Source: Gordius sp. MW1
Lineage: Eukaryota > Nematomorpha > Gordioida > Gordea > Gordiidae
Direction: 5' to 3'
DNA: 64,000 bases
NCBI GenBank assembly: GCA_964036665.1
Contig: OZ038528.1
Location: 10,856,501-10,920,500, forward strand
Part shown: positions 2,415-62,943 of the stretch, piece by piece
Position numbering within the stretch: the first letter of the stretch is position 1
Layout of the letters: every line of letters begins with the position of its first letter
Program-made: the position numbers and the translations under genes
The notes under the pieces: generated by a model
Seen by the model: the letters and a program-made list of their open reading frames with translations, nothing else
What the model was told of the DNA's origin: nothing
The model's database searches: none

Positions 2415-5400
2415 TCGTTTTCAGATGTGGTTTCCATGATAAAAAGTAAAAATTTATCAGAATCAGAAAACTATTACTTTGAAATCATGATCGCATAGTG
2501 CATTTTTGAAAAATTAAGCACTCACGTTGCGATACAACAAACTAATCGCAACAATAAAACGTTGTCTTTTGTCAAAATGATAGTTCTCGCAGCTTAAAAC
2601 CTCTTTTCGGATGTCAATCGAGGATAATAGGATTCTCAAACAGCCTACTTTTATATATTTTTTCATGCTCTTTCACATAGAATCGAAAAAAATAAATATT
2701 TTGACCCCATCATTTTTCACATATTTTTCTTTCAACCGTATTCATCCGATGAAAGTTGTCGTTTTCAGACGTGGTTTCCATGATAAAAAGTAAAAATTTA
2801 TCAGAATCAGAAAACTATTACTTTGAAATCATGATCGCATAGTGCATTTTTGAAAAATTAAGCATTCACGTTGCGATACAACAAACTAATCGCAACAATA
2901 AAACGTTGTCTTTTGTCAAAATGATAGTTCTCGCAGCTTAAAACCTCTTTTCGGAAGTCAATCGAGGATAATAGGATTCTCAAATTGGCCTACTATTATA
3001 TATTTTTTCATGCTCTTCCACATAGAATCGAAAAAAATAAATATTTTTACCTCAAAATTTTTCACATATTTTTCTTTCAACCGTATTCATCCGATGAAAG
3101 TTCTCGTTTTCAGACGTGGTTTCCATGATAAAAAGTAAAAATTTATCAGAATCAGAAAACTATTACTTTGAAATCATGATCGCATAGTGCATTTTTGAAA
3201 AATTAAGCATTCACGTAGCGATACAACAAACTAATCGCAATAATAAAACGTTGTCTTTTGTCAAAATGATAGTTCTCGCAGCTTAAAACCTCTTTTCGGG
3301 AGTCAATCGAGGATAATAGGATTCTCAAATTGGCCTACTTTTATATATTTTTTCATGCTCTTTCACATAGAATCGAAAAAAATAAATATTTTTACCTTAA
3401 AATTTTTCACATATTTTTCTTTGAACCGTATTCATCCGATGAAAGTTGTCGTTTTCAGACGTGGTTTCCATGATAAAAAGTAAAAATTTATCAGAATCAG
3501 AAAACTATTACTTTGAAATCATCATCGCATAGTGCATTTTTGAAAAATTAAGCACTCACGTTGCGATACAACAAACTAATCGCAACAATAAAACGTTGTC
3601 TTTTGTCAAAATGATAGTTCTCGCAGCTTAAAACCTCTTTTCGGAAGTCAATCGAGGATAATAGGATTCTCAAATTGGCCTACTTTTATATATTTTTTCC
3701 TACTCTTTCACATAGAATCGAAAAAAATAAATATTTTTACCTCAAAATTTTTCACATATTTTTCTTTCAACCGTATTCATCCGATGAAAGTTGTCGTTTT
3801 CAGACGTGGTTTCCATGATAAAAAGTAAAAATTTATCGGAATCAGAAAACTATTACTTTGAAATCATGATCGCATAGTGCATTTTTGAAAAATTAAGCAC
3901 TCACGTTGCGATACAACAAACTAATCGCAACAATAAAACGTTGTCTTTTGTCAAAATGATAGTTCTCGCAGCTTAAAACCTCTTTTCGGAAGTCAATCGA
4001 GGATAATAGGATTCTCAAATTGGCCTACTATTATATATTTTTTCATGCTCTTTCACATAGAATCGAAAAAAATAAATATTTTTGCCTCAAAATTTTTCAC
4101 ATATTTTTCTTTGAACCGTATTCATCCGATGAAAGTTGTCGTTTTCAGACGTGGTTTCCATGATAAAAAGTAAAAATTTATCAGAATCAGAAAACTATTA
4201 CTTTAAAATCATGATCGCATAGTGCATTTTTGAAAAATTAAGCACTCACGTTGCGATACAACAAACTAATCGCAACAATAAAACGTTGTCTTTTGTCAAA
4301 ATGATAGTTCTCGCAGCTTAAAAACTCTTTTCGGAAGTCAATCGAGGATAATAGGATTCTCAAATTGGCCTACTTTTATATATTTTTTCATGCTCTTTCA
4401 CATAGAATCGAAAAAAATCAATATTTTTACCTCAAAAGTTTTCACATATTTTTCTTTGAACCGTATTCATCCGATGAAAGTTGTCGTTTTCAGACGTGGT
4501 TTCCATGATAAAAAGTAAAAATTTATCAGAATCAGAAAACTATTACTTTGAAATCATGATCGCATAGTGCATTTTTGAAAAATTTAGCACTCACGTTGCG
4601 ATACAACAAACTAATCGCAACAATAAAACGTTGTCTTTTGTCAAAATGATAGTTCTCGCAGCTTAAAACCTCTTTTCGGAAGTCAATCGAGGATAATAGG
4701 ATTCTCAAATTGGCCTACTTTTATATATTTTTTCATGCTCTTTCACATAGAATCGAAAAAAATAAATATTTTTACCTTAAAATTTTTCACATATTTTTCT
4801 TTGAACCGTATTCATCCGATGAAAGTTGTCGTTTTCAGACGTGGTTTCCATGATAAAAAGTAAAAATTTATCAGAATCAGAAAACTATTACTTTGAAATC
4901 ATGATCGCATAGTGCATTTTTGAAAAATTAAGCATTCACGTAGCGATACAACAAACTAATCGCAATAATAAAACGTTGTCTTTTGTCAAAATGATAGTTC
5001 TCGCAGCTTAAAACCTCTTTTCGGGAGTCAATCGAGGATAATAGGATTCTCAAATTGGCCTACTTTTATATATTTTTTCATGCTCTTTCACATAGAATCG
5101 AAAAAAATAAATATTTTTACCTTAAAATTTTTCACATATTTTTCTTTGAACCGTATTCATCCGATGAAAGTTGTCGTTTTCAGACGTGGTTTCCATGATA
5201 AAAATTAAAAATTTATCAGAATCAGAAAACTATTACTTTGAAATCATCATCGCATAGTGCATTTTTGAAAAATTAAGCACTCACGTTGCGATACAACAAA
5301 CTAATCGCAACAATAAAACGTTGTCTTTTGTCAAAATGATAGTTCTCGCAGCTTAAAACCTCTATTCGGATGTCAATCGAGGATAATAGAATTCTCAAAT

Positions 5401-5517
5401 AGCCTACTTTTATATATTTTTTCATGCTCTTTCACATAGAATCGAAAAAAATAAATATTTTTACCTCAAAAGTTTTCACATATTTTTCTTTCAAGCTAAT
5501 TCATCCGGTGAAAGTTG
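2415..5517 (+). repeat. 9-mer HOR, copy 1 (3103 bp)
   Basis: Nine units start at 2415, 2759, 3104, 3449, 3794, 4139, 4484, 4829 and 5174. Markers of the first seven types are: GATGTGG plus TTGACCCC (2415), CTCTTCCAC (2759), GGGAGTC with AATAATAAAAC (3104), CATCATCGC with TTCCTACTC (3449), TATCGG with TTGCCTC (3794), AATCAATATT (4139) and AATTTAGC (4484). The last two differ from other copies: 4829 repeats the 3104 type, and 5174 is a hybrid that starts like 3449 and ends like the unit at 2071. Confidence 0.9.
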
Positions 5518-8500
5518 TCGTTTTCAGATGTGGTTTCCATGATAAAAAGTAAAAATTTATCAGAATCAGAAAACTATTACTTTGAAATCATGATCGCATA
5601 GTGCATTTTTGAAAAATTAAGCACTCACGTTGCGATACAACAAACTAATCGCAACAATAAAACGTTGTCTTTTGTCAAAATGATAGTTCTCGCAGCTTAA
5701 AACCTCTTTTCGGATGTCAATCGAGGATAATAGGATTCTCAAACAGCCTACTTTTATATATTTTTTCATGCTCTTTCACATAGAATCGAAAAAAATAAAT
5801 ATTTTGACCCCATCATTTTTCACATATTTTTCTTTCAACCGTATTCATCCGATGAAAGTTGTCGTTTTCAGACGTGGTTTCCATGATAAAAAGTAAAAAT
5901 TTATCAGAATCAGAAAACTATTACTTTGAAATCATGATCGCATAGTGCATTTTTGAAAAATTAAGCATTCACGTTGCGATACAACAAACTAATCGCAACA
6001 ATAAAACGTTGTCTTTTGTCAAAATGATAGTTCTCGCAGCTTAAAACCTCTTTTCGGAAGTCAATCGAGGATAATAGGATTCTCAAATTGGCCTACTATT
6101 ATATATTTTTTCATGCTCTTCCACATAGAATCGAAAAAAATAAATATTTTTACCTCAAAATTTTTCACATATTTTTCTTTCAACCGTATTCATCCGATGA
6201 AAGTTCTCGTTTTCAGACGTGGTTTCCATGATAAAAAGTAAAAATTTATCAGAATCAGAAAACTATTACTTTGAAATCATGATCGCATAGTGCATTTTTG
6301 AAAAATTAAGCATTCACGTAGCGATACAACAAACTAATCGCAATAATAAAACGTTGTCTTTTGTCAAAATGATAGTTCTCGCAGCTTAAAACCTCTTTTC
6401 GGGAGTCAATCGAGGATAATAGGATTCTCAAATTGGCCTACTTTTATATATTTTTTCATGCTCTTTCACATAGAATCGAAAAAAATAAATATTTTTACCT
6501 TAAAATTTTTCACATATTTTTCTTTGAACCGTATTCATCCGATGAAAGTTGTCGTTTTCAGACGTGGTTTCCATGATAAAAAGTAAAAATTTATCAGAAT
6601 CAGAAAACTATTACTTTGAAATCATCATCGCATAGTGCATTTTTGAAAAATTAAGCACTCACGTTGCGATACAACAAACTAATCGCAACAATAAAACGTT
6701 GTCTTTTGTCAAAATTATAGTTCTCGCAGCTTAAAACCTCTTTTCGGAAGTCAATCGAGGATAATAGGATTCTCAAATTGGCCTACTTTTATATATTTTT
6801 TCCTACTCTTTCACATAGAATCGAAAAAAATAAATATTTTTACCTCAAAATTTTTCACATATTTTTCTTTCAACCGTATTCATCCGATGAAAGTTGTCGT
6901 TTTCAGACGTGGTTTCCATGATAAAAAGTAAAAATTTATCGGAATCAGAAAACTATTACTTTGAAATCATGATCGCATAGTGCATTTTTGAAAAATTAAG
7001 CACTCACGTTGCGATACAACAAACTAATCGCAACAATAAAACGTTGTCTTTTGTCAAAATGATAGTTCTCGCAGCTTAAAACCTCTTTTCGGAAGTCAAT
7101 CGAGGATAATAGGATTCTCAAATTGGCCTACTATTATATATTTTTTCATGCTCTTTCACATAGAATCGAAAAAAATAAATATTTTTGCCTCAAAATTTTT
7201 CACATATTTTTCTTTGAACCGTATTCATCCGATGAAAGTTGTCGTTTTCAGACGTGGTTTCCATGATAAAAAGTAAAAATTTATCAGAATCAGAAAACTA
7301 TTACTTTAAAATCATGATCGCATAGTGCATTTTTGAAAAATTAAGCACTCACGTTGCGATACAAAAAACTAATCGCAACAATAAAACGTTGTCTTTTGTC
7401 AAAATGATAGTTCTCGCAGCTTAAAACCTCTTTTCGGAAGTCAATCGAGGATAATAGGATTCTCAAATTGGCCTACTTTTATATATTTTTTCATGCTCTT
7501 TCACATAGAATCGAAAAAAATCAATATTTTTACCTCAAAAGTTTTCACATATTTTTCTTTGAACCGTATTCATCCGATGAAAGTTGTCGTTTTCAGACGT
7601 GGTTTCCATGATAAAAAGTAAAAATTTATCAGAATCAGAAAACTATTACTTTGAAATCATGATCGCATAGTGCATTTTTGAAAAATTTAGCACTCACGTT
7701 GCGATACAACAAACTAATCGCAACAATAAAACGTTGTCTTTTGTCAAAATGATAGTTCTCGCAGCTTAAAACCTCTTTTCGGAAGTCAATCGAGGATAAT
7801 AGGATTCTCAAATTGGCCTACTTTTATATATTTTTTCATGCTCTTTCACATAGAATCGAAAAAAATAAATATTTTTACCTTAAAAGTTTTCACATATTTT
7901 TCTTTCAACCGTATTCATCCGATGAAAGTTGTCGTTTTCAGACGTGGTTTCCATGATAAAAAGTAAAAATTTATCAGAATCAGAAAACTATTACTTTGAA
8001 ATCATGATCGCATAGTGCATTTTTGAAAAATTAAGCACTCACGTTGCGATACAACAAACTAATCGCAACAATAAAACGTTGTCTTTTGTCAAAATGATAG
8101 TTCTCGCAGCTTAAAACCTCTTTTCGGATGTCAATCGAGGATAATAGGATTCTCAAACAGCCTACTTTTATATATTTTTTCATGCTCTTTCACATCGAAT
8201 CGAAAAAAATAAATATTTTTACCTCAACATTTTTTACATATTTTTCTTTCAACCGTATTCATCCGATGAAAGTTGTCGTTTTCAGACGTGGTTTCCATGA
8301 TAAAAAGTAAATATTTATCAGAATCAGAAAACTATTACTTTGAAATCATGATCGCTTAGTGCATTTTTGAAAAATTAAGCACTCACGTTGCGATACAACA
8401 AACTAATCGCAACAATAAAACGTTGTCTTTTGTCAAAATGATAGTTCTCGCAGCTTAAAACCTCTTTTCGGATGTCAATCGAGGATAATAGGATTCTCAA

Positions 8501-8619
8501 ACAGCCTACTTTTATATATTTTTTCATGCTCTTTCACATCGAATCGAAAAAAATAAATATTTTTACCTCAACATTTTTCACATATTTTTCTTTCAAGCGT
8601 ATTCATCCGGTGAAAGTTG
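5518..8619 (+). repeat. 9-mer HOR, copy 2 (3102 bp)
   Basis: Units start at 5518, 5862, 6207, 6552, 6897, 7242, 7587, 7932 and 8276. The first seven match copy 1 in order with very few differences (for example ACAAAAAACT in the 7242 unit). The eighth and ninth are a different pair: 7932 has CACATCGAATCG and CAACATTTTTTAC, and 8276 has GTAAATATTTA, GATCGCTTAG and the CAAGCG...CCGGTG ending that leads into the next GATGTGG unit. This pair recurs in copies 3 and 4. Confidence 0.9.
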
Positions 8620-11600
8620 TCGTTTTCAGATGTGGTTTCCATGATAAAAAGTAAAAATTTATCAGAATCAGAAAACTATTACTTTGAAATCATGATCGCA
8701 TAGTGCATTTTTGAAAAATTAAGCACTCACGTTGCGATACAACAAACTAATCGCAACAATAAAACGTTGTCTTTTGTCAAAATGATAGTTCTCGCAGCTT
8801 AAAACCTCTTTTCGGATGTCAATCGAGGATAATAGGATTCTCAAACAGCCTACTTTTATATATTTTTTCATGCTCTTTCACATAGAATCGAAAAAAATAA
8901 ATATTTTGACCCCATCATTTTTCACATATTTTTCTTTCAACCGTATTCATCCGATGAAAGTTGTCGTTTTCAGACGTGGTTTCCATGATAAAAAGTAAAA
9001 ATTTATCAGAATCAGAAAACTATTACTTTGAAATCATGATCGCATAGTGCATTTTTGAAAAATTAAGCATTCACGTTGCGATACAACAAACTAATCGCAA
9101 CAATAAAACGTTGTCTTTTGTCAAAATGATAGTTCTCGCAGCTTAAAACCTCTTTTCGGAAGTCAATCCAGGATAATAGGATTCTCAAATTGGCCTACTA
9201 TTATATATTTTTTCATGCTCTTCCACATAGAATCGAAAAAAATAAATATTTTTACCTCAAAATTTTTCACATATTTTTCTTTCAACCGTATTCATCCGAT
9301 GAAAGTTGTCGTTTTCAGACGTGGTTTCCATGATAAAAAGTAAAAATTTATCAGAATCAGAAAACTATTACTTTGAAATCATGATCGCATAGTGCATTTT
9401 TGAAAAATTAAGCATTCACGTAGCGATACAACAAACTAATCGCAATAATAAAACGTTGTCTTTTGTCAAAATGATAGTTCTCGCAGCTTAAAACCTCTTT
9501 TCGGGAGTCAATCGAGGATAATAGGATTCTCAAATTGGCCTACTTTTATATATTTTTTCATGCTCTTTCATATAGAATCGAAAAAAATAAATATTTTTAC
9601 CTAAAATTTTTCACATATTTTTCTTTGAACCGTATTCATCCGATGAAAGTTGTCGTTTTCAGACGTGGTTTCCATGATAAAAAGTAAAAATTTATCAGAA
9701 TCAGAAAACTATTACTTTGAAATCATCATCGCATAGTGCATTTTTGAAAAATTAAGCACTCACGTTGCGATACAACAAACTAATCGCAACAATAAAACGT
9801 TGTCTTTTGTCAAAATGATAGTTCTCGCAGCTTAAAACCTCTTTTCGGAAGTCAATCGAGGATAATAGGATTCTCAAATTGGCCTACTTTTATATATTTT
9901 TTCCTACTCTTTCACATAGAATCGAAAAAAATAAATATTTTTACCTCAAAATTTTTCACATATTTTTCTTTCAACCGTATTCATCCGATGAAAGTTGTCG
10001 TTTTCAGACGTGGTTTCCATGATAAAAAGTAAAAATTTATCGGAATCAGAAAACTATTACTTTGAAATCATGATCGCATAGTGCATTTTTGAAAAATTAA
10101 GCACTCACGTTGCGATACAACAAACTAATCGCAACAATAAAACGTTGTCTTTTGTCAAAATGATAGTTCTCGCAGCTTAAAACCTCTTTTCGGAAGTCAA
10201 TCGAGGATAATAGGATTCTCAAATTGGCCTACTATTATATATTTTTTCATGCTCTTTCACATAGAATCGAAAAAAATAAATATTTTTGCCTCAAAATTTT
10301 TCACATATTTTTCTTTGAACCGTATTCATCCGATGAAAGTTGTCGTTTTCAGACGTGGTTTCCATGATAAAAAGTAAAAATTTATCAGAATCAGAAAACT
10401 ATTACTTTGAAATCATGATCGCATAGTGCATTTTTGAAAAATTAAGCACTCACGTTGCGATACAACAAACTAATCGCAACAATAAAACGTTGTCTTTTGT
10501 CAAAATGATAGTTCTCGCAGCTTAAAACCTCTTTTCGGAAGTCAATCGAGGATAATAGGATTCTCAAATTGGCCTACTTTTATATATTTTTTCATGCTCT
10601 TTCACATAGAATCGAAAAAAATCCATATTTTTACCTCAAAAGTTTTCACATATTTTTCTTTCAACCGTATTCATCCGATGAAGGTTGTCGTTTTCAGACG
10701 TGGTTTCCATGATAAAAAGTAAAAATTTATCAGAATCAGAAAACTATTACTTTGAAATCATGATCGCATAGTGCATTTTTGAAAAATTTAGCACTCACGT
10801 TGCGATACAACAAACTAATCGCAACAATAAAACGTTGTCTTTTGTCAAAATGATAGTTCTCGCAGCTTAAAACCTCTTTTCGGAAGTCAATCGAGGATAA
10901 TAGGATTCTCAAATTGGCCTACTTTTATATATTTTTTCATGCTCTTTCACATAGAATCGAAAAAAATAAATATTTTTACCTTAAAAGTTTTCACATATTT
11001 TTCTTTCAACCGTATTCATCCGATGAAAGTTGTCGTTTTCAGACGTGGTTTCCATGATAAAAAGTAAAAATTTATCAGAATCAGAAAACTATTACTTTGA
11101 AATCATGATCGCATAGTGCATTTTTGAAAAATTAAGCACTCACGTTGCGATACAACAAACTAATCGCAACAATAAAACGTTGTCTTTTGTCAAAATGATA
11201 GTTCTCGCAGCTTAAAACCTCTTTTCGGATGTCAATCGAGGATAATAGGATTCTCAAACAGCCTACTTTTATATATTTTTTCATGCTCTTTCACATCGAA
11301 TCGAAAAAAATAAATATTTTTACCTCAACATTTTTTACATATTTTTCTTTCAACCGTATTCATCCGATGAAAGTTGTCGTTTTCAGACGTGGTTTCCATG
11401 ATAAAAAGTAAATATTTATCAGAATCAGAAAACTATTACTTTGAAATCATGATCGCTTAGTGCATTTTTGAAAAATTAAGCACTCACGTTGCGATACAAC
11501 AAACTAATCGCAACAATAAAACGTTGTCTTGTGTCAAAATGATAGTTCTCGCAGCTTAAAATTTCTTTTCGGATGTCAATCGAGGATAATAGGATTCTCA

Positions 11601-12064
11601 AACAGCCTACTTTTATATATTTTTTCATGCTCTTTCACATCGAATCGAAAAAAATAAATATTTTTACCTCAACATTTTTTACATATTTTTCTTTCAACCG
11701 TATTCATCCGATGAAAGTTGTCGTTTTCAGACGTGGTTTCCATGATAAAAAGTAAATATTTATCAGAATCAGAAAACTATTACTTTGAAATCATGATCGC
11801 TTAGTGCATTTTTGAAAAATTAAGCACTCACGTTGCGATACAACAAACTAATCGCAACAATAAAACGTTGTCTTTTGTCAAAATGATAGTTCTCGCAGCT
11901 TAAAACCTCTTTTCGGATGTCAATCGAGGATAATAGGATTCTCAAACAGCCTACTTTTATATATTTTTTCATGCTCTTTCACATCGAATCGAAAAAAATA
12001 AATATTTTTACCTCAACATTTTTCACATATTTTTCTTTCAAGCGTATTCATCCGGTGAAAGTTG
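8620..12064 (+). repeat. HOR copy 3, expanded to 10-mer (3445 bp)
   Basis: Units start at 8620, 8964, 9309, 9653, 9998, 10343, 10688, 11033, 11377 and 11721. The first seven follow the copy 1 order. The tail holds three CTTAG/CATCG-type units instead of two: 11377 combines the start of the 8276 type with the end of the 7932 type, adding one 344-bp unit. Private changes include AATCCATATT (10343 unit), GTCTTGTGTC (11377 unit) and a one-base loss giving ACCTAAAATT near 9600. Confidence 0.9.
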
Positions 12065-15000
12065 TCGTTTTCAGATGTGGTTTCCATGATAAAAAGTAAA
12101 AATTTATCAGAATCAGAAAACTATTACTTTGAAATCATGATCGCATAGTGCATTTTTGAAAAATTAAGCACTCACGTTGCGATACAACAAACTAATCGCA
12201 ACAATAAAACGTTGTCTTTTGTCAAAATGATAGTTCTCGCAGCTTAAAACCTCTTTTCGGATGTCAATCGAGGATAATAGGATTCTCAAACAGCCTACTT
12301 TTATATATTTTTTCATGCTCTTTCACATAGAATCGAAAAAAATAAATATTTTGACCCCATCATTTTTCACATATTTTTCTTTCAACCGTATTCATCCGAT
12401 GAAAGTTGTCGTTTTCAGACGTGGTTTCCATGATAAAAAGTAAAAATTTATCAGAATCAGAAAACTATTACTTTGAAATCATGATCGCATAGTGCATTTT
12501 TGAAAAATTAAGCATTCACGTTGCGATACAACAAACTAATCGCAACAATAAAACGTTGTCTTTTGTCAAAATGATAGTTCTCGCAGCTTAAAACCTCTTT
12601 TCGGAAGTCAATCGAGGATAATAGGATTCTCAAATTGGCCTACTATTATATATTTTTTCATGCTCTTCCACATAGAATCGAAAAAAATAAATATTTTTAC
12701 CTCAAAATTTTTCACATATTTTTCTTTCAACCGTATTCATCCGATGAAAGTTCTCGTTTTCAGACGTGGTTTCCATGATAAAAAGTAAAAATTTATCAGA
12801 ATCAGAAAACTATTACTTTGAAATCATGATCGCATAGTGCATTTTTGAAAAATTAAGCATTCACGTAGCGATACAACAAACTAATCGCAATAATAAAACG
12901 TTGTCTTTTGTCAAAATGATAGTTCTCGCAGCTTAAAACCTCTTTTCGGGAGTCAATCGAGGATAATAGGATTCTCAAATTGGCCTACTTTTATATATTT
13001 TTTCATGCTCTTTCATATAGAATCGAAAAAAATAAATATTTTTACCTTAAAATTTTTCACATATTTTTCTTTGAACCGTATTCATCCGATGAAAGTTGTC
13101 GTTTTCAGACGTGGTTTCCATGATAAAAAGTAAAAATTTATCAGAATCAGAAAACTATTACTTTGAAATCATGATCGCATAGTGCATTTTTGAAAAATTA
13201 AGCACTCACGTTGCGATACAACAAACTAATCGCAACAATAAAACGTTGTCTTTTGTCAAAATGATAGTTCTCGCAGCTTAAAACCTCTTTTCGGAAGTCA
13301 ATCGAGGATAATAGGATTCTCAAATTGGCCTACTTTTATATATTTTTTCCTACTCTTTCACATAGAATCGAAAAAAATAAATATTTTTACCTCAAAATTT
13401 TTCACATATTTTTCTTTCAACCGTATTCATCCGATGAAAGTTGTCGTTTTCAAACGTGGTTTCCATGATAAAAAGTAAAAATTTATCGGAATCAGAAAAC
13501 TATTACTTTGAAATCATGATCGCATAGTGCATTTTTGAAAAATTAAGCACTCACGTTGCGATACAACAAACTAATCGCAACAATAAAACGTTGTCTTTTG
13601 TCAAAATGATAGTTCTCGCAGCTTAAAACCTCTTTTCGGAAGTCAATCGAGGATAATAGGATTCTCAAATTGGCCTACTATTATATATTTTTTCATGCTC
13701 TTTCACATAGAATCGAAAAAAATAAATATTTTTGCCTCAAAATTTTTCACATATTTTTCTTTGAACCGTATTCATCCGATGAAAGTTGTCGTTTTCAGAC
13801 GTGGTTTCCATGATAAAAAGTAAAAATTTATCAGAATCAGAAAACTATTACTTTGAAATCATGATCGCATAGTGCATTTTTGAAAAATTAAGCACTCACG
13901 TTGCGATACAACAAACTAATCGCAACAATAAAACGTTGTCTTTTGTCAAAATGATAGTTCTCGCAGCTTAAAACCTCTTTTCGGAAGTCAATCGAGGATA
14001 ATAGGATTCTCAAATTGGCCTACTTTTATATATTTTTTCATGCTCTTTCACATAGAATCGAAAAAAATCAATATTTTTACCTCAAAAGTTTTCACATATT
14101 TTTCTTTCAACCGTATTCATCCGATGAAGGTTGTCGTTTTCAGACGTGGTTTCCATGATAAAAAGTAAAAATTTATCAGAATCAGAAAACTATTACTTTG
14201 AAATCATGATCGCATAGTGCATTTTTGAAAAATTTAGCACTCACGTTGCGATACAACAAACTAATCGCAACAATAAAACGTTGTCTTTTGTCAAAATGAT
14301 AGTTCTCGCAGCTTAAAACCTCTTTTCGGAAGTCAATCGAGGATAATAGGATTCTCAAATTGGCCTACTTTTATATATTTTTTCATGCTCTTTCACATAG
14401 AATCGAAAAAAATAAATATTTTTACCTTAAAAGTTTTCACATATTTTTCTTTCAACCGTATTCATCCGATGAAAGTTGTCGTTTTCAGACGTGGTTTCCA
14501 TGATAAAAAGTAAAAATTTATCAGAATCAGAAAACTATTACTTTGAAATCATGATCGCATAGTGCATTTTTGAAAAATTAAGCACTCACGTTGCGATACA
14601 ACAAACTAATCGCAACAATAAAACGTTGTCTTTTGTCAAAATGATAGTTCTCGCAGCTTAAAACCTCTTTTCGGATGTCAATCGAGGATAATAGGATTCT
14701 CAAACAGCCTACTTTTATATATTTTTTCATGCTCTTTCACATCGAATCGAAAAAAATAAATATTTTTACCTCAACATTTTTTACATATTTTTCTTTCAAC
14801 CGTATTCATCCGATGAAAGTTGTCGTTTTCTGACGTGGTTTCCATGATAAAAAGTAAATATTTATCAGAATCAGAAAACTATTACTTTGAAATCATGATC
14901 GCTTAGTGCATTTTTGAAAAATTAAGCACTCACGTTGCGATACAACTAACTAATCGCAACAATAAAACGTTGTCTTGTGTCAAAATGATAGTTCTCGCAG

Positions 15001-15166
15001 CTTAAAACCTCTTTTCGGATGTCAATCGAGGATAATAGGATTCTCAAACAGCCTACTTTTATATATTTTTTCATGCTCTTTCACATAGAATCGGAAAAAA
15101 TAAATATTTTTACCTCAACATTTTTTACATATTTTTCTTTCAACCGTATTCATCCGATGAAAGTTG
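12065..15166 (+). repeat. 9-mer HOR, copy 4 (3102 bp)
   Basis: Units start at 12065, 12409, 12754, 13099, 13444, 13789, 14134, 14479 and 14823. It is closest to copy 3: both have TCATATAG in the GGGAGTC unit and GATGAAGGTTG after the AATCAATATT-type unit. The fourth unit has regained CATGATCGC. The last unit (14823) has TTCTGACG, ACAACTAAC and AATCGGAAAA and does not end in CCGGTG, so it does not lead into another GATGTGG unit; the HOR series stops here. Confidence 0.88.
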
Positions 15167-18100: not shown

Positions 18101-18599
18101 TTTTCGGAAGTCAATCGAGGATAATAGGATTCTCAAATTGGCCTACTTTCATATATTTGTTCATGCTCTTTCACATAGAATCGAAAAAATAAATATTTTT
18201 ACCTCAAAATTTTTCACATATTTTTCTTTGAACCGTATTCATCCGATGAAAGTTGTCGTTTTCAGACGTGGTTTCTATGATAAAAAGTAAATATTTATCA
18301 GAATCAGAAAACTATTACTTTGAAATCATGATCGCATAGTGCATTTTTGAAAAATTAAGCACTCACGTTGCGATACAACAAACTAATCGCAACAATAAAA
18401 CGTTATCTTTTGTCAAAATGATAGTTCTCGCAGCATAAAACCTCTTTTCGGATGTCAATCGAGGATAATAGGATTCTCAAATAGCCTACTTTTATATATT
18501 TTTTCATGCTCTTTCACATAGAATCGAAAAAAATAAATATTTTTACCTCAACATTTTTTACTTATTTTTCTTTCAAGCGTATTCATCCGATGAAAGTTG
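15167..18599 (+). repeat. Irregular block of ten monomers
   Basis: Units start at 15167, 15511, 15856, 16201, 16546, 16889, 17223, 17568, 17912 and 18256. No clear multi-monomer period repeats within the block. Many units carry private changes: TATTAGG and AATTAACC (15511), a 2-bp loss in the GTAAATTTATC segment (16546), an 11-bp loss (16889), CTATAACTTTG (17912), CGTTATC and GCATAAAAC (18256). Units 17568 and 17912 resemble the GAATTCTC / GATGTGG pair at 2071-2415. No gene. Confidence 0.8.
16889..17222 (+). repeat. 334-bp monomer with 11-bp deletion
   Basis: The A-run and following TAAAT of the A/T-tract segment are missing, so CATAGAATTG runs directly into AATTTTTACC around 17151-17169. 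The rest of the unit is ordinary, with AATAATAAAAC. I saw no second copy of this deletion, so it has not spread in this window. Confidence 0.85.
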
Positions 18600-49000: not shown

Positions 49001-49510
49001 TTAAAACCTCGTGGCGGAAGTCAATCGATGATAATAGGATTCTCAAATTGGCCTACTTTTATATATTTTTTCATGCTCTTTCACATAGAATCGAAAAAAA
49101 TAAATATTTTTACCTCAAAATTTTTCACATATTTTTCTTTCAACCGTATTCATCCTAAGAAAGTTGTCGTTTTCAGACGTGGTTTCCATGATAAAAAGTA
49201 AAAATTTATCAGAATCAGAAAACTATTACTTTGAAATCATGATCGCATAGTGCATTTTTGAAAAATTAAGCACTCACGTTGCGATACAACAAACTAATCG
49301 CAACAATAAAACGTTGTCTTTTGTCAAAATGATAGTTCTCGCAGCTTAAAACCTCTTTTCGGAAGTCAATCGAGGATAATAGGATTCTCAAATTGGCCTA
49401 CTTTTAATATTTTTTCATGCTCTTTCACATAGAATCGAAAAAAATAAATATTTTTACCTGAAAATTTTTCACATATTTTTCTTTCAACCGTATTCATCCG
49501 ATGAAAGTTG
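46065..49510 (+). repeat. Mosaic block with two 1379-bp 4-mers
   Basis: Units start at 46065, 46409, 46753, 47098, 47443, 47788, 48132, 48477, 48822 and 49167. The stretches 46409-47787 and 47788-49166 are both exactly 1379 bp and share TATATAGTTTTTC, CTCTTTAACAT, GACGTAGTTTCC, ACGGTGCG, ATTACGCAT...TTTGACCCG, CCTCGTGGCGG and CATCCTAAG. The internal junctions differ: the 46753 unit corresponds to parts of 48132 and 48477, and the 48822 unit to parts of 47098 and 47443. No gene. Confidence 0.85.
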
Positions 49511-51924: not shown

Positions 51925-53992
51925 TCGTTTTCCGACGTGGTTTCCATGATAAAAAGTAAAAATTTATCAGAATCAAAAAACTATTACTTTGAAATCATGA
52001 TCGCATACTGCATTTTTGAAAAATTAAGCACTCACGTTGCGATACAACAAACTAATCGCAACAATAAAACGTTGTCTTTTGTCAAAATGATAGTTCTCGC
52101 AGCTTAAAACCTCTTTTCGGAAGTCAATCGAGGATAATAGGATTCTCAAATTGGCTTACTTATATATATTTTTTCATGCTCTTTCACATAGAATCGAAAA
52201 AAATAAATATTTTTACCTCAAAATTTTTCACATATTTTTCTTTCAACCGTATGCATATGATGAAAGTTGTTGTTTTCAGACGTGGTTTCCATAATCCCAA
52301 GTAAAAATTTATCAGAATCTGAAAACTATTACTTTGAAATCATGATCGCATAGAGCCATTTTCAAAAATTAAGCATCACGTTGCGATACAACAAATTAAT
52401 CGCAACAATAAAACGTTGTCTTTTGTCAAAATGATAGATATCGCAGCTTAAAACCTCTTTTCGGAAGTAAATCGAGGATAATAGGATTCTCAAATTGGCT
52501 TAGTTATATATATTTTTTCATGCTCTTTCACATAGAATCGAAAAAAATAAATATTTTTACCTCAAAATTTGTCACATATTTTTCTTTCAACCGTATTCAT
52601 CCGATGAAAGTTGTCGTTTTCCGACGTGGTTTCCATGATAAAAAGTAAAAATTTATCAGAATCAAAAAACTATTACTTTGAAATCATGATCGCATACTGC
52701 ATTTTTGAAAAATTAAGCACTCACGTTGCGATACAACAAACTAATCGCAACAATAAAACGTTGTTTTTTGTCAAAATGATAGTTCTCGCAGCTTAAAACC
52801 TCGTGGCGGAAGTCAATCGATGATAATAGGATTCTCAAATTGGCCTACTTTTATATATTTTTTCATGCTCTTTCACATAGAATCGAAAAAAATAAATATT
52901 TTTACCTCAAAATTTTTCACATATTTTTCTTTCAACCGTATTCATCCTAAGAAAGTTGTCGTTTTCAGACGTGGTTTCCATGATAAAAAGTAAAAATTTA
53001 TCAGAATCAGAAAACTATTACTTTGAAATCATGATCGCATAGTGCATTTTTGAAAAATTAAGCACTCACGTTGCGATACAACAAACTAATCGCAACAATA
53101 AAACGTTGTCTTTTGTCAAAATGATAGTTCTCGCAGCTTAAAACCTCTTTTCGGAAGTCAATCGAGGATAATAGGATTCTCAAAGTGGCCTACTTTTATA
53201 TATTTTTTCATGCTCTTTCACATAAAATCGAAAAAAATAAATATTTTTACCTCAAAATCCTTCACATATTTTTCTTTCAACCGTATTCATCCGATGAAAG
53301 TTGTCGTTTTCCAACGTGGTTTCCATGATAAAAAGTAAAAATTTATCAGAATACAAAAACTATTACTTTGAAATCAAGATCGCATAGTGCATTTTTGAAA
53401 AATTAAGCACTCACGTTGCGATACAACAAACTAATCGCAACAATAAAACGTTGTCTTTTGTCAAAATGATAGTTCTCGCAGCTTAAAACCTCTTTTCGGA
53501 AGTCAATCGAGGATAATAGGATTCTCAAATTGGCCTACTTTTATATATTTTTTCATGCTCTTTCACATAGAATCGAAAAAAACAAATATTTTTACCTCAA
53601 AATCTTTCACATATTTTTCTTTGAACCGTATTCATCCGATGAAAGTTGTCGTTTTCAGACGTGGTTTCCATGATAAAAAGTAAAAATTTATCAAAATCAG
53701 AAAACTATTACTTTGAAATCATGATCGCATAGTGCATTTTTGAAAAATTAAGCACTCACGTTGCGATACAACAAACTAATCGCAACAATAAATCGTTGTC
53801 TTTTGTCAAAATGATAGTTCTCGCAGCTTAAAACCTCTTTTCGGAAGTCAATCGAGGATAATAGGATTCTCAAATTGGCCTACTTTTAATATTTTTTCAT
53901 GCTCTTTCACATAGAATCGAAAAAAATAAATATTTTTACCTGAAAATTTTTCACATATTTTTCTTTCAACCGTATTCATCCGATGAAAGTTG
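51925..53992 (+). repeat. Six-monomer insert between 7-mer copies
   Basis: Units start at 51925, 52270, 52614, 52959, 53304 and 53649 (2068 bp). The first two (GGCTTACTTATATA, then a strongly diverged unit) recur at 59513-60201. The third joins a CATACTGC start to the CCTCGTGGCGG / CATCCTAAG end seen at 48822. The fourth has AAAGTGGCC and AAATCCTTC. The last two are the sixth and seventh unit types of the 7-mer and lead into its next copy. Confidence 0.88.
52270..52613 (+). repeat. Strongly diverged monomer, copy 1
   Basis: This 344-bp unit carries many clustered differences from the consensus: CATAATCCCAAG, ATCTGAAAAC, TAGAGCCATTTTC, GCATCACG, CAAATTAATCG, a GATATC at 52437-52442, GAAGTAAATC, GGCTTAGTTATA and AATTTGTCAC. 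The core dyad is intact. The preceding unit ends GTATGCATATGATG, containing CATATG at 52254-52259. The changes are spread over the whole unit, so it looks like an older lineage rather than a local mutation burst. Confidence 0.9.
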
Positions 53993-56407
53993 TCGTTTTC
54001 CGACGTGGTTTCCATGATAAAAAGTAAAAATTTATCAGAATCAAAAAACTATTACTTTGAAATCATGATCGCATACTGCATTTTTGAAAAATTAAGCACT
54101 CACGTTGCGATACAACAAACTAATCGCAACAATAAAACGTTGTCTTTTGTCAAAATGATAGTTCTCGCAGCTTAAAACCTCTTTTCGGAAGTCAATCGAG
54201 GATAATAGGATTCTCAAATTGGCTTACTTTTATATATTTTTTCATGCTCTTTCACATAGAATCGAAAAAAAAAAAAAAATTTACCTCAAAATTTTTCACA
54301 TATTTTTCTTTGAACCGTATTCATCCGATGAAAGTTGTCGTTTTCAGACGTGGTTTCCATGATAAAAAGTAAAAATTTATCAGAATCAGAAAACTATTAC
54401 TTTGAAATCATGATCGCATAGTGCATTTTTGAAAAATTAAGCACTCACGTTGCGATACAACAAACTAATCGCAACAATAAAACGTTGTCTTTTGTCAAAA
54501 TGATAGTTCTCGCAGCTTAAAACCTCTTTTCGGAAGTCAATCGAGGATAATAGGATTCTCAAATTGGCCTACTTTTATATAGTTTTTCATGCTCTTTAAC
54601 ATAGAATCAAAAAAAAAAAAATATTTTTACCTCAAAATTTTTCACATATTTTTCTTTGAACCGTATTCATCCGATGAAAGTTGTCGTTTTCAGACGTGGT
54701 TTCCATGATAAAAAGTAAAAATTTATCAGAATCAGAAAACTATTACTTTGAAATCATGATCGCATAGTGCATTTTTGAAAAATTAAGCACTCACGGTGCG
54801 ATACAACAAACTAATCGCAACAATAAAACGTTGTCTTTTGTCAAAATGATAGTTCTCGCAGCTTAAAACCTCTTTTCGGAAGTCAATCGAGGATAATAGG
54901 ATTCTCAAATTGGCTTACTTTTATAAATTTTTTTATGCTCTTTTACATAGAACCGAAAAAAATAAATATTTTTACCTTAAAATTTTTCACATATTCTTCT
55001 TTGAACCGTATTCATCCGATGAAAGTTGTCGTTTTCAGACGTGGTTTCCATGATAAAAAGTAAAAATTTATCAGAATCAGAAAAGTATTACTTTGAAATC
55101 ATGATCGTATAGTGCATTTTTGAAGAATTAAGCACTCACGTTGCGATACAACAAACTAATCGCAACAATAAAACGTTGTCTTTTGTCAAAATGATAGTTC
55201 TCGCAGCTTAAAACCTCTTTTCGGAAGTCAATCGAGGATAATAGGATTCTCAAATTGGCCTACTTTTATATATTTTTTCCTACTCTTTCACATAGAATCG
55301 AAAAAAATAAATATTTTTACCTCAAAATTTTTCACATATTTTTCTTTGAACCGTATTCATCCGATGAAAGTTGTCGTTTTCCGACGTGGTTTCCATGATA
55401 AAAAGTAAAAATTTATCAGAATCAAAAAACTATTACTTTGAAATCATGATCGCATACTGCATTTTTGAAAAATTAAGCACTCACGTTGCGATACAACAAA
55501 CTAATCGCAACAATAAAACGTTGTCTTTTGTCAAAATGATAGTTCTCGCAGCTTAAAACCTCTTTTCGGAATTCAATCGAGGATAATAGGATTCTCAAAT
55601 TGGCCTACTTTTATATATTTTTTCATGCTCTTTCACATAGAATCGAAAAAAATAAATATTTTTACCTCAAAATCTTTCACATATTTTTCTTTCAACCGTA
55701 TTCATCCGATGAAAGTTGTCGTTTTCCAACGTGGTTTCCATGATAAAAAGTAAAAATTTATCAGAATACAAAAACTATTACTTTGAAATCAAGATCGCAT
55801 AGTGCATTTTTGAAAAATTAAGCACTCACGTTGCGATACAACAAACTAATCGCAACAATAAAACGTTGTCTTTTGTCAAAATGATAGTTCTCGCAGCTTA
55901 AAACCTCTTTTCGGAAGTCAATCGAGGATAATAGGATTCTCAAATTGGCCTACTTTTATATATTTTTTCATGCTCTTTCACATAGAATCGAAAAAAACAA
56001 ATATTTTTACCTCAAAATCTTTCACATATTTTTCTTTGAACCGTATTCATCCGATGAAAGTTGTCGTTTTCAGACGTGGTTTCCATGATAAAAAGTAAAA
56101 ATTTATCAAAATCAGAAAACTATTACTTTGAAATCATGATCGCATAGTGCATTTTTGAAAAATTAAGCACTCACGTTGCGATACAACAAACTAATCGCAA
56201 CAATAAATCGTTGTCTTTTGTCAAAATGATAGTTCTCGCAGCTTAAAACCTCTTTTCGGAAGTCAATCGAGGATAATAGGATTCTCAAATTGGCCTACTT
56301 TTAATATTTTTTCATGCTCTTTCACATAGAATCGAAAAAAATAAATATTTTTACCTGAAAATTTTTCACATATTTTTCTTTCAACCGTATTCATCCGATG
56401 AAAGTTG
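53993..56407 (+). repeat. 7-mer HOR, copy 2 (2415 bp)
   Basis: Units start at 53993, 54338, 54684, 55029, 55374, 55719 and 56064, matching copy 1 in order. The A-run in the first unit is about 15 long. The seventh unit ends CTTTTAATATTTTTTC with ACCTGAAAATT, as does 53649, where copy 1 has TATAAATTTTTTC. Copies 2 and 3 start with the same long-A unit. Confidence 0.92.
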
Positions 56408-59400
56408 TCGTTTTCCGACGTGGTTTCCATGATAAAAAGTAAAAATTTATCAGAATCAAAAAACTATTACTTTGAAATCATGATCGCATACTGCATTTTT
56501 GAAAAATTAAGCACTCACGTTGCGATACAACAAACTAATCGCAACAATAAAACGTTGTCTTTTGTCAAAATGATAGTTCTCGCAGCTTAAAACCTCTTTT
56601 CGGAAGTCAATCGAGGATAATAGGATTCTCAAATTGGCTTACTTTTATATATTTTTTCATGCTCTTTCACATAGAATCGAAAAAAAAAAAAAATTTACCT
56701 CAAAATTTTTCACATATTTTTCTTTGAACCGTATTCATCCGATGAAAGTTGTCGTTTTCAGACGTGGTTTCCATGATAAAAAGTAAAAATTTATCAGAAT
56801 CAGAAAACTATTACTTTGAAATCATGATCGCATAGTGCATTTTTGAAAAATTAAGCACTCACGTTGCGATACAACAAACTAATCGCAACAATAAAACGTT
56901 GTCTTTTGTCAAAATGATAGTTCTCGCAGCTTAAAACCTCTTTTCGGAAGTCAATCGAGGATAATAGGATTCTCAAATTGGCCTACTTTTATATAGTTTT
57001 TCATGCTCTTTAACATAGAATCAAAAAAAAAAAAATATTTTTACCTCAAAATTTTTCACATATTTTTCTTTGAACCGTATTCATCCGATGAAAGTTGTCG
57101 TTTTCAGACGTGGTTTCCATGATAAAAAGTAAAAATTTATCAGAATCAGAAAACTATTACTTTGAAATCATGATCGCATAGTGCATTTTTGAAAAATTAA
57201 GCACTCACGGTGCGATACAACAAACTAATCGCAACAATAAAACGTTGTCTTTTGTCAAAATGATAGTTCTCGCAGCTTAAAACCTCTTTTCGGAAGTCAA
57301 TCGAGGATAATAGGATTCTCAAATTGGCTTACTTTTATAAATTTTTTTATGCTCTTTTACATAGAATCGAAAAAAATAAATATTTTTACCTTAAAATTTT
57401 TCACATATTCTTCTTTGAACCGTATTCATCCGATGAAAGTTGTCGTTTTCAGACGTGGTTTCCATGATAAAAAGTAAAAATTTATCAGAATCAGAAAAGT
57501 ATTACTTTGAAATCATGATCGTATAGTGCATTTTTGAAGAATTAAGCACTCACGTTGCGATACAACAAACTAATCGCAACAATAAAACGTTGTCTTTTGT
57601 CAAAATGATAGTTCTCGCAGCTTAAAACCTCTTTTCGGAAGTCAATCGAGGATAATAGGATTCTCAAATTGGCTTACTTTTATAAATTTTTTTATGCTCT
57701 TTTACATAGAATCGAAAAAAATAAATATTTTTACCTTAAAATTTTTCACATATTCTTCTTTGAACCGTATTCATCCGATGAAAGTTGTCGTTTTCAGACG
57801 TGGTTTCCATGATAAAAAGTAAAAATTTATCAGAATCAGAAAACTATTACTTTGAAATCATGATCGCATAGTGCATTTTTGAAAAATTAAGCACTCACGG
57901 TGCGATACAACAAACTAATCGCAACAATAAAACGTTGTCTTTTGTCAAAATGATAGTTCTCGCAGCTTAAAACCTCTTTTCGGAAGTCAATCGAGGATAA
58001 TAGGATTCTCAAATTGGCTTACTTTTATAAATTTTTTTATGCTCTTTTACATAGAATCGAAAAAAATAAATATTTTTACCTCAAAATTTTTCACATATTT
58101 TTCTTTGAACCGTATTCATCCGATGAAAGTTGTCGTTTTCAGACGTGGTTTCCATGATAAAAAGTAAAAATTTATCAGAATCAGAAAACTATTACTTTGA
58201 AATCATGATCGCATAGTGCATTTTTGAAAAATTAAGCACTCACGGTGCGATACAACAAACTAATCGCAACAATAAAACGTTGTCTTTTGTCAAAATGATA
58301 GTTCTCGCAGCTTAAAACCTCTTTTCGGAAGTCAATCGAGGATAATAGGATTCTCAAATTGGCCTACTTTTATATATTTTTTCCTACTCTTTCACATAGA
58401 ATCGAAAAAAATAAATATTTTTACCTCAAAATTTTTCACATATTTTTCTTTGAACCGTATTCATCCGATGAAAGTTGTCGTTTTCCGACGTGGTTTCCAT
58501 GATAAAAAGTAAAAATTTATCAGAATCAAAAAACTATTACTTTGAAATCATGATCGCATACTGCATTTTTGAAAAATTAAGCACTCACGTTGCGATACAA
58601 CAAACTAATCGCAACAATAAAACGTTGTCTTTTGTCAAAATGATAGTTCTCGCAGCTTAAAACCTCTTTTCGGAATTCAATCGAGGATAATAGGATTCTC
58701 AAATTGGCCTACTTTTATATATTTTTTCATGCTCTTTCACATAGAATCGAAAAAAATAAATATTTTTACCTCAAAATCTTTCACATATTTTTCTTTCAAC
58801 CGTATTCATCCGATGAAAGTTGTCGTTTTCCAACGTGGTTTCCATGATAAAAAGTAAAAATTTATCAGAATACAAAAACTATTACTTTGAAATCAAGATC
58901 GCATAGTGCATTTTTGAAAAATTAAGCACTCACGTTGCGATACAACATACTAATCGCAACAATAAAACGTTGTCTTTTGTCAAAATGATAGTTATCGCAG
59001 CTTAAAACCTCTTTTCGGAAGTCAATCGAGGATAATAGGATTCTCAAATTGGCCTACTTTTATATATTTTTTCATGCTCTTTCACATAGAATCGAAAAAA
59101 ACAAATATTTTTACCTCAAAATCTTTCACATATTTTTCTTTGAACCGTATTCATCCGATGAAAGTTGTCGTTTTCAGACGTGGTTTCCATGATAAAAAGT
59201 AAAAATTTATCAAAATCAGAAAACTATTACTTTGAAATCATGATCGCATAGTGCATTTTTGAAAAATTAAGCACTCACGTTGCGATACAACAAACTAATC
59301 GCAACAATAAATCGTTGTCTTTTGTCAAAATGATAGTTCTCGCAGCTTAAAACCTCTTTTCGGAAGTCAATCGAGGATAATAGGATTCTCAAATTGGCCT

Positions 59401-59512
59401 ACTTTTATAAATTTTTTCATGCTCTTTCACATAGAATCGAAAAAAATAAATATTTTTACCTCAAAATTTTTCACATATTTTTCTTTCAACCGTATTCATC
59501 CGATGAAAGTTG
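56408..59512 (+). repeat. 7-mer HOR, copy 3, expanded to 9-mer (3105 bp)
   Basis: Units start at 56408, 56752, 57098, 57443, 57788, 58133, 58478, 58823 and 59168. Two extra units were gained around the third and fourth types: 57443 starts as the GATCGTATAG type but ends as the ACGGTGCG type, and 57788 and 58133 are further ACGGTGCG units, the last ending TTCCTACTC as the fourth type should. The GGAATTC, GAATACAAAAAC and AATAAATCG units then follow as normal. Confidence 0.9.
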
Positions 59513-60201
59513 TCGTTTTCCGACGTGGTTTCCATGATAAAAAGTAAAAATTTATCAGAATCAAAAAACTATTACTTTGAAATCATGATCGCATACTGCA
59601 TTTTTGAAAAATTAAGCACTCACGTTGCGATACAACAAACTAATCGCAACAATAAAACGTTGTCTTTTGTCAAAATGATAGTTCTCGCAGCTTAAAACCT
59701 CTTTTCGGAAGTCAATCGAGGATAATAGGATTCTCAAATTGGCTTACTTATATATATTTTTTCATGCTCTTTCACATAGAATCGAAAAAAATAAATATTT
59801 TTACCTCAAAATTTTTCACATATTTTTCTTTCAACCGTATGCATATGATGAAAGTTGTCGTTTTCAGACGTGGTTTCCATAATCCCAAGTAAAAATTTAT
59901 CAGAATCTGAAAACTATTACTTTGAAATCATGATCGCATAGAGCCATTTTCAAAAATTAAGCATCACGTTGCGATACAACAAATTAATCGCAACAATAAA
60001 ACGTTGTCTTTTGTCAAAATGATAGATATCGCAGCTTAAAACCTCTTTTCGGAAGTAAATCGAGGATAATAGGATTCTCAAATTGGCTTAGTTATATATA
60101 TTTTTTCATGCTCTTTCACATAGAATCGAAAAAAATAAATATTTTTACCTCAAAATTTGTCACATATTTTTCTTTCAACCGTATTCATCCGATGAAAGTT
60201 G
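59513..60201 (+). repeat. Copy of the diverged two-monomer segment
   Basis: Units 59513 and 59858 repeat units 51925 and 52270, including GTATGCATATGATG and every listed change of the diverged monomer; the only difference I noted is TGTCG here against TGTTG at the start of the 52270 unit. The separation is 7588 bp. Both pairs follow an AATAAATCG unit, so the pair was probably part of an older, larger repeat. Confidence 0.9.
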
Positions 60202-62943
60202 TCGTTTTCAGACGTGGTTTCCATGATAAAAAGTAAAAATTTATCAGAATCAGAAAACTATTACTTTGAAATCATGATCGCATAGTGCATTTTTGAAAAA
60301 TTAAGCACTCACGTTGCGATACAACAAACTAATCGCAACAATAAAACGTTGTCTTTTGTCAAAATGATAGTTCTCGCAGCTTAAAACCTCTTTTCGGAAG
60401 TCAATCGATGATAATAGGATTCTCAAATTGGCCTACTTTTATATATTTTTTCATGCTCTTTCACATAGAATCGAAAAAAATAAATATTTTTACCTCAAAA
60501 TTTTTCACATATTTTTCTTTCAACCGTATTCATCCGATGAAAGTTGTCGTTTTCAGACGTGGTTTCCATGATAAAAAGTAAAAATTTATCAGAATCAGAA
60601 AACTATTACTTTGAAATCATGATCGCATAGTGCATTTTTGAAAAATTAAGCACTCACGTTGCGATACAACAAACTAATCGCAACAATAAAACGTTGTTTT
60701 TTGTCAAAATGATAGTTCTCGCAGCTTAAAACCTCTTTTCGGAAGTCAATCGAGGATAATAGGATTCTCAAATTGGCTTACTTTTATATATTTTTTCATG
60801 CTCTTTCACAAAGAATCGAAAATAATAAATATTTTTACCTTAAAATATTTCACATATTTTTCTTTGAACCGTATTCATCCGATGAAAGTTGTCGTTTTCA
60901 GACGTGGTTTCCATGATAAAAAGTAAAAATTTATCACAATCACTATTACTTTAAAATCATGATCGCATAGTGCATTTTTGAAAAATTAAGCACTCACGTT
61001 GCGATACAACAAACTAATCGCAACAATAAAACGTTGTCTTTTGTCAAAATGATAGTTCTCGCAGCTTAAAACCTCTTTTCGGAAGTCAATCGAGGATAGG
61101 ATTCTCAAATTGGCCTACTTTTATATATTTTTTCATGCTCTTTCACATAGAATCAAAAAAAAAATATTTTGTACCTCAAAATTTTACGCATATTTTTCTT
61201 TGAACCGTATTCATCCGATGAAAGTTGTCGTTTTCAGACGTGGTTTCCTTGATAAAAAGTAAAAATTTATCAGAATCAGAAAACTATTACTTTGAAATCA
61301 TGATCGCATAGTGCATTTTTGAAAAATTAAGCACTCACGTTGCGATACAACAAACTAATCGCAACAATAAAACGTTGTTTTTTGTCAAAATGATAGTTCT
61401 CGCAGCTTAAAACCTCTTTTCGGAAGTCAATAGAGGATAATAGGATTCTCAAATTCGCCTACTTTTATATATTTTTTCATGCTCTTTCACATAGAATCGA
61501 AAAAAATAAATATTTTTACCTCAAAATTTTTCACATATTTTTCTTTGAACCGTATTCATCCGATGAAAGTTGTCGTTTTCCGACGTAATTTCCATGATAA
61601 AAAGTAAAAATTTATCAGAATCAAAAAACTATTACTTTGAAATCATGATCGCATAGTGCATTTTTGAAAAATTAAGCACTCACGTTGCGATACAACAAAC
61701 TAATCGCAACAATAAAACGTTGTCTTTTGTCAAAATGATAGTTCTCGCAGCTTAAAACCTCTTTTCGGAAGTCAATCGATGATAATAGGATTCTCAAATT
61801 GGCCTACTTTTATATATTTTTTCTTGCTCTTTCACATAGAATCAAAAAAAAAATATTTTTACCTCAAAATTTTTCACATATTTTTCTTTGAACCGTATTC
61901 ATCCGATGAAAGTTGTCGTTTTCAGACGTGGTTTCCTTGATAAAAAGTAAAAATTTATCAGAATCAGAAAACTATTACTTTGAAATCATGATCGCATAGT
62001 GAATTTTTGAAAAATTAAGCACTCACGTTGCGATACAACAAACTAATCGCAACAATAAAACGTTGTCTTTTGTCAAAATGATAGTTCTCGCAGCTTAAAA
62101 CCTCTTTTCGGAAGTCAATCGATGATAATAGGATTCTCAAATTGGCCTACTTTTATATATTTTTTCTTGCTCTTTCACATAGAATCAAAAAAATATTTTT
62201 ACCTCAAAATTTTTCACATATTTTTCTTTGAACCGTATTCATCCGATGAAAGTTGTCGTTTTCAGACGTGGTTTCCTTGATAAAAAGTAAAAATTTATCA
62301 GAATCAGAAAACTATTACTTTGAAATCATGATCGCATAGTGCATTTTTGAAAAATTAAGCACTCACGTTGCGATACAACAAACTAATCGCAACAATAAAA
62401 CGTTGTTTTTTGTCAAAATGATAGTTCTCGCAGCTTAAAACCTCTTTTCGGAAGTCAATAGAGGATAATAGGATTCTCAAATTGGCCTACTTTTATATAT
62501 TTTTTCTTGCTCTTTCACATAGAATCAAAAAAAAAATATTTTTACGTCAAAATTTTTCACATATTTTTCTTTGAACCGTATTCATCCGATGAAAGTTGTC
62601 GTTTTCAGACGTGGTTTCCTTGATAAAAAGTAAAAATTTATCAGAATCAGAAAACTATTACTTTGAAATCATGATCGCATAGTGCATTTTTGAAAAATTA
62701 AGCACTCACGTTGCGATACAACAAACTAATCGCAACAATAAAACGTTGTTTTTTGTCAAAATGATAGTTCTCGCAGCTTAAAACCTCTTTTCGGAAGTCA
62801 ATAGAGGATAATAGGATTCTCAAATTGGCCTACTTTTATATATTTTTTCATGCTCTTTCACATAGAATCGAAAAAAATAAATATTTTTACCTCAAAATTT
62901 TTCACATATTTTTCTTTCAACCGTATTCATCCGATGAAAGTTG
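60202..62943 (+). repeat. 8-mer HOR, copy 1 (2742 bp)
   Basis: Units start at 60202, 60547, 60892, 61228, 61573, 61916, 62256 and 62599. Markers: CGATGATAAT (60202); GTTGTTTTTTG with CACAAAGAATCG and AAATAATAAAT (60547); ATTTTGTACC and TTTTACGCAT (60892, 336 bp, with small deletions giving ATCACAATCACT and GAGGATAGG); TTTCCTTGAT with CAATAGAGG (61228); TTCCGACGTAATT (61573); TTTTCTTGCTC (61573, 61916 and 62256); a shortened A-run in 61916 (340 bp). Confidence 0.82.

Follow-up and report, generated by a model that had tools for sequence, protein, structure and literature searches.

How does a tandem array of nearly identical monomers come to carry several different higher-order repeats (HORs) in quick succession? 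We addressed this question in a 64,000-nt stretch of the genome of Gordius sp. MW1 (Nematomorpha; assembly GCA_964036665.1, 211.8 Mb in 12 contigs, here C1 to C12), namely positions 10,856,501–10,920,500 of the 26.6-Mb contig OZ038528.1 (C2), hereafter the window. A period-345 tandem array covers bases 1–63998: a 345-bp satellite (family A; 1..64000, + strand) of 187 monomers arranged head-to-tail, in a single orientation and without insertion. Overall, the window is a mosaic of short, mostly paired multi-monomer blocks. The likely explanation is an older wide-scale amplification followed mainly by the local duplication and deletion of blocks, most of them 4–10 monomers long, probably with some gene conversion, within a megabase-scale, centromere-like array.

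Short-lived higher-order repeats in a 345-bp satellite

We analyzed the window together with 100 kb on either side (264 kb in total, 767 monomers; 2 monomers <300 bp were dropped). Across this sample, monomers differ from one another at 10.8 positions on average (~3.1%). When each monomer was compared with the monomer k places further on (lag analysis), copies within the window blocks of period 4–13 differed by 0–0.48% over the matched segments, i.e., they are far more alike than the monomers that constitute them. Such blocks are virtually absent after shuffling: 10 blocks were detected in the window compared to a mean of 0.04 and a maximum of 1 across 50 shuffles of monomer order, and 191 runs were found in the 264 kb (lags up to 60) compared to a mean of 0.75 and a maximum of 2 across 20 shuffles. 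At the base level, 273 segments were observed, while three shuffles yielded 1, 4, and 0.

All blocks lie on the + strand and are given in window coordinates. A 9/9/10-monomer block in four copies spans 2154..14947, with sub-blocks of period 9 at 2.1–8.0 kb, period 9 at 5.5–11.5 kb, and period 10 at 8.1–14.9 kb; its lag segments differ by 0.21–0.34%, and a marker 31-mer recurs at 4570, 7673, 10774, and 14220. It is followed by a 5-monomer block in two copies (18732..21897; 0 differences in 1488 columns), an 8-monomer block in two copies (25432..31143; 3 differences in 2965 columns), and a 4-monomer block in two copies (35117..38023; 3 differences in 1531 columns), inside which a weaker period 2 overlaps. 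A second 5-monomer block, in three copies, occupies 40846..46161 (15 differences in 3596 columns; marker 31-mer at 41599, 43322, and 45045). The remainder of the window includes a partial 13-monomer block (49213..56645; match length 0.66 of the lag), a 7-monomer block in ~1.8 copies (53261..57674; 2 differences in 1999 columns), and an 8-monomer block in ~1.7 copies (60223..64000) that extends beyond the window to 64854 and has no private marker. Copy number exceeds two in the 9/9/10 block and in the second 5-monomer block alone; all others are two-copy duplications.

These results recover each of the HOR periods listed, with their places, in an initial annotation of this stretch (9/10, 5, 8, 4, 5, 7, and 8 monomers), and add the partial 13-monomer block. 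Of the two to four copies proposed there for short-lived HORs, two is the usual number. A separate marker set for each HOR was found for 6 of the 7 blocks, as judged by 31-mers that recur only within their own block across the 264 kb, with the last period-8 block as the exception. After 11 markers had been recentred on the variant that each carries, 8 remained private to their block at this scale and 3 did not; genome-wide, four recentred markers were not private, with 57, 19, 315, and 1,651 copies. The HORs can be called unrelated as far as their variants are concerned, but all blocks are built from the same monomer family. Nor is the array short: family A runs through both 100-kb flanks with no insertion seen, i.e., it is unbroken across at least 264 kb, and it was sampled again at points between 9.0 and 12.5 Mb (see below).

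The window is typical of its flanks and nothing exceptional. Seven overlapping 187-monomer stretches of the 264 kb contain 8–18 blocks with 5–11 periods and are 50–75% covered, compared to 10 blocks and 65% for the window. The succession of HORs, annotated as unusual, also has a precedent in the maize satellite CentC (PMC4806543). By the measure applied to alpha satellite, the blocks do represent multi-monomer units with copies far more alike than their constituent monomers, but no single unit extends over a long distance, with 2–4 copies per unit and no near-identical run beyond 400 monomers within the 264 kb. They correspond to the CentC type, in which a few to ~ten monomers are duplicated side by side and several such pairs follow one another.

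Local divergence, counted as differences per monomer pair, is ~5 around 10.76 Mb and climbs unevenly to 14.9 around 10.92 Mb; a further minimum (8.0) lies around 10.98 Mb. The window thus sits between a more uniform zone and a more varied one, on the slope that joins them. In the window, a word with the G variant at column 298 is common up to 24.7 kb, and it is next seen only at 66 kb. Very low monomer divergence (~4–6 differences per pair) was also noted at C2:10.757–10.768 Mb and at three loci at 11.815–11.822 Mb; since the latter were chosen by query similarity, their low divergence partly reflects selection.

Proposed turnover by local duplication and deletion

We propose that an older, wide-scale amplification left the array almost uniform, and that random local tandem duplication and deletion would have followed, acting on blocks of mostly 4–10 monomers (1.4–3.5 kb). 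Out-of-register sister-chromatid exchange or homology-directed break repair is a candidate source of these events, and gene conversion would probably have added a share. Each duplication would create a two-copy “HOR” that acquires its own later mutations; a few blocks would grow to three or four copies, while others would be broken up. Smith's model, as presented in a review, holds that out-of-register exchange makes periodicity inevitable (PMC8122249).

We simulated this process by duplicating blocks of monomers in tandem or deleting them at random, with added mutation, from a homogeneous start. With a minimum block of 4 monomers, a mean of 8–10, and ~900–1000 events on 800 monomers, the fraction of near-identical pairs at lags 1–8 was close to the observed one, while lags 10–30 had somewhat too many. 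These settings gave 57–61 blocks and a mean copy number of 2.0. The observed values are 50 blocks and 2.6 copies, or 42 and 2.1 when the first 35 monomers are left out. In addition, among the very recent segments (≥900 bp, ≤0.12% different; n = 31), 9 of the 11 at lags 4–6 span at least 0.85 of their lag, as adjacent duplication predicts. An equilibrium version of the model was rejected, as it gave a ~2.3-fold divergence gradient from lag 1 to lag 600 at an untuned mutation level, compared to at most ~1.1-fold in the data.

The simulations also bear on the size of individual events. Near-identical pairs are 3.2 times more frequent at lags 4–8 than at lags 1–3 (3.21 without the first 35, unusually uniform monomers; 2.94 with them). 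No run attained this ratio in any of six settings with a minimum block of one or two monomers (100 runs each); with a minimum of three, it was attained in 0 and 4 of 100 runs, and with a minimum of four or five, in 88–95 of 100. Because runs of <3 monomers are uncounted, the peak of run counts at 4–10 monomers is partly a detection effect, and the argument for a minimum size was therefore based on per-monomer fractions, which have no such cut. Tentatively, and with more reserve than for local duplication itself, we suggest a lower exchange size limit of ~four monomers (~1.4 kb), below which duplications of one to three monomers are rare. Turnover would then be a minimum-displacement process and not replication slippage, and event size, not sequence, would set the length of each short-lived HOR.

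Several points weigh against this account. The model is idealized, with geometric sizes, one array, no population, and an assumed homogeneous start. It yields 2.5–2.9 blocks with ≥2.8 copies, compared to 11 observed (6 without the first 35 monomers), and a minimum block of 4 overshoots the observed short-lag deficit in most runs, so that small events look rare rather than forbidden. A permutation test for runs whose length equals their lag was not significant (12 vs 8.8 expected, p 0.17); as derived diagonals dilute this test, simulations were used instead. There, the 12 adjacent recent runs observed compare with 17–19 (standard deviation, sd, ~3) for duplication and deletion alone in two of three settings, 14.5 in the setting with a mean block of 14, 14.8 with 25% conversion, and 11.0 with 50% conversion, i.e., a conversion share of 25–50% fits the count better than pure duplication and deletion. 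Since block borders falling inside monomers lower the observed count, we do not take this better fit as proof.

Could gene conversion then be the dominant process, with tracts of 1–2 kb copied over neighbors, array length unchanged, and adjacency arising by chance? Among the very recent segments, 15 of 31 cover less than half of their lag, with separations of up to 60 monomers, and so do 37 of 59 recent runs at the monomer level. However, pure duplication and deletion also gives 24–33 dispersed runs through later rearrangement, while conversion alone falls short both in adjacent runs (5.8, sd 2.4, vs 12) and in runs that exceed their lag (4% vs 5 of 58), and none of the four conversion settings tried reproduced the deficit at lags 1–3 (0 of 100 runs in each). 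We thus consider dominant conversion unlikely. A mixture of duplication/deletion and gene conversion is quite possible; the simulations do not cleanly separate duplication alone from duplication plus conversion, and Smith-type unequal exchange provides a rough but not a unique fit.

Range of copying and a relative 934 kb away

Near-identical runs are concentrated at lags 4–20 and decay steeply with distance. Per 1000 monomer-pair cells there are 11.4 at lags 4–6, 1.4 at lags 51–100, and 0.05 at lags 201–400; none was found at lags 401–760 within the 264 kb. Mean monomer divergence is nearly flat over the same range (10.2, 11.3, and 10.2 differences at lags 1, 400, and 600, respectively), which points to an earlier homogenization of the whole stretch.

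The 9/10 block has a distant relative on the same contig. Its marker also occurs at C2:11,798,668, 11,801,770, and 11,805,217, with spacings of 3,102 and 3,447 compared to 3,101 and 3,446 in the window, the first window copy having no marker partner there; a second marker of this block has one partner, at the same offset of 934,497. A 3-kb sample of the relative has its four best matches in the 264 kb at the window's four copies, in register. Compared by monomer register across seven monomers, relative and window copies show 45–51 differences in register and 54–79 at shifts of 1–3 monomers; of the 18 block-fixed variants, 13 are common to both. One monomer of the relative is nevertheless identical to an off-register neighbor. 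Across five well-aligned monomers, window copies differ from each other by 5–10 and from the relative by 29–33 (~2% divergence), so that the 9/10 HOR structure is older than the present likeness of its window copies, and long-range copying is rare, not absent. Fixed offsets also appear to recur among marker places elsewhere, as picked out of position lists: on C4, two pairs are 35,991 bp apart, and on C3, three pairs are 9,600 bp and two pairs 79,540 bp apart.

The frequent short-range duplication suggested by the initial annotation is borne out by this decay and by the rough fit of the local model. Its companion claim of little long-range homogenization survives in part: runs are absent at lags 401–760, but the 934-kb relative, the fixed marker offsets, and the flat divergence profile point the other way.

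The age of the 9/10 structure might indicate that larger HOR arrays, once dominant, have decayed and that the blocks are what is left of them. However, the copies in a block are younger than the monomers by an order of magnitude, and the 264 kb contain no dominant period and none that recurs beyond 400 monomers, which makes this origin quite improbable. Outside the window, on its left, 14 monomers are duplicated in tandem (C2:10,767,351–10,777,300) with 0 differences in 5,125 columns; this duplication is either very recent or an assembly duplicate. Although a false duplication would look like this, it is most improbable that the block order as a whole is an assembly mosaic, given that copies carry private differences in most blocks, that block units of 1.4–3.5 kb are presumably well below usual long-read lengths, and that the same block type fills all 264 kb.

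Extent and chromosomal setting of the array

Across 20 sampled points on C2, family A was found at 10 (9.0, 9.5, 10.0, 11.2, 11.4, 11.6, 11.8, 12.0, 12.25, and 12.5 Mb), among which it switches strand several times. A second family (family B, ~343 bp, 60–67% identical to family A) was found at three (10.25, 10.5, and 10.65 Mb), while seven (8 Mb; 13 Mb and beyond) contained no 12-mer of the 345-bp repeat. A 22-mer of family B occurs 2,157 times on the forward strand and 227 times on the reverse strand; among the matches listed, six are on C1 and the rest on C2. A 25-mer of the 345-bp repeat has 48,846 exact copies genome-wide. Since the 767 monomers of the 264 kb hold 653 of them, family A would, by extrapolation, amount to roughly 20 Mb, or ~9% of the genome.

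Among the matches listed, satellite words fall in one internal region of each large contig: C1 11.2–14.6, C2 8.6–12.5, C3 12.8–16.3, C4 2.9–4.0, C5 11.4–11.8, C6 13.2–16.4, C7 9.0–11.1, and C8 13.1–13.2 Mb (three hits for C8). This distribution suggests a centromeric or pericentromeric location for this megabase-scale array. CENP-B boxes are present in some centromeric satellites and not required; a search of the window for the motif, allowing up to 1 mismatch, gave 0 matches. An 8-bp perfect dyad, GTTGCGAT-N11-ATCGCAAC, at monomer columns 110–137 (e.g., near window positions 112–139) adjoins the least variable stretch of the monomer and is a possible protein site.

At the contig ends, CCCTAA (TTAGGG-type) repeats are present within the first 200 bases of 6 of the 12 contigs (C1, C2, C3, C5, C6, and C8). 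Two contigs, C8 (37 Mb) and C9 (1.4 Mb), break the order by size, as would presumably be the case for named sex chromosomes.

The mitochondrial contig C12 (14.8 kb) includes reading frames that we take to be cytochrome b and, on the opposite strand, nad1, with a tRNA-Val separating nad1 from tRNA-Ser and cytochrome b. The usual arthropod mitochondrial order differs from this arrangement. Perfect inverted repeats with 17- and 53-bp arms lie inside the putative cytochrome b and nad1 frames, and a third, with 13 bp per arm, lies elsewhere in the 3.2 kb (0 in 10 shuffles). A mitochondrial study describes coding palindromes on an exceptional scale in Nematomorpha, with a nad1 site common to all four species studied, and less extreme ones in other phyla (PMC6649704). 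The palindromes of C12 thus suggest a fit with Nematomorpha. Together with the TTAGGG-type contig ends, they led us to set aside a primate (alpha satellite), a beetle, or another insect as host.

Comparison with known satellite systems

A limited literature search on satellite DNA in Nematomorpha gave no description of this satellite; the work that it returned is listed as dealing with R2 retrotransposons. In Arabidopsis, HORs of the CEN178 satellite are reportedly mostly local and of low copy number, as is said of work by Naish (2021) and Wlodzimierz (2023). The TRASH report lists the HORs of Arabidopsis as duplications that each comprise several monomers, and places ~10% of that genome in tandem repeats, similar to the share extrapolated here, with a monomer of 178 bp (PMC10199239). 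As portrayed in two sources on human alpha satellite (PMC11062924, PMC8122249), divergence also grows away from a more uniform zone and multi-monomer blocks are more alike than monomers; there, however, one HOR can span megabases and monomers are ~70% alike, compared to 97% and 2–4 copies here. The macro-dyad satellite of Tribolium shares the multi-megabase scale, blocks of alternating orientation, and two related families (PMC13081366), but differs in sequence and phylum, and strand changes in Gordius are known from sampled points.

Taken together, the kind of process is already known from maize CentC and is seen here in a little-studied animal group. As simple local duplication yields roughly such a mosaic of short-lived HORs, mosaics of this kind need no special explanation. 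With 264 kb free of any seen insertion, the size, age, and distance of duplications can be read directly, and the array offers a testable minimum event size. CentC has a monomer of ~156 bp. It differs in monomer and kingdom, and the maize study describes a centromere 10 array that is interrupted by retrotransposons and to which CENH3 binding was mapped (PMC4806543). The likeness lies in the architecture: in that array, too, several short HORs follow one another, mostly as paired copies generated by adjacent segmental duplication, with one duplication of 10 monomers, four duplications within an array of ~50 monomers, and break repair as the proposed source (PMC4806543).

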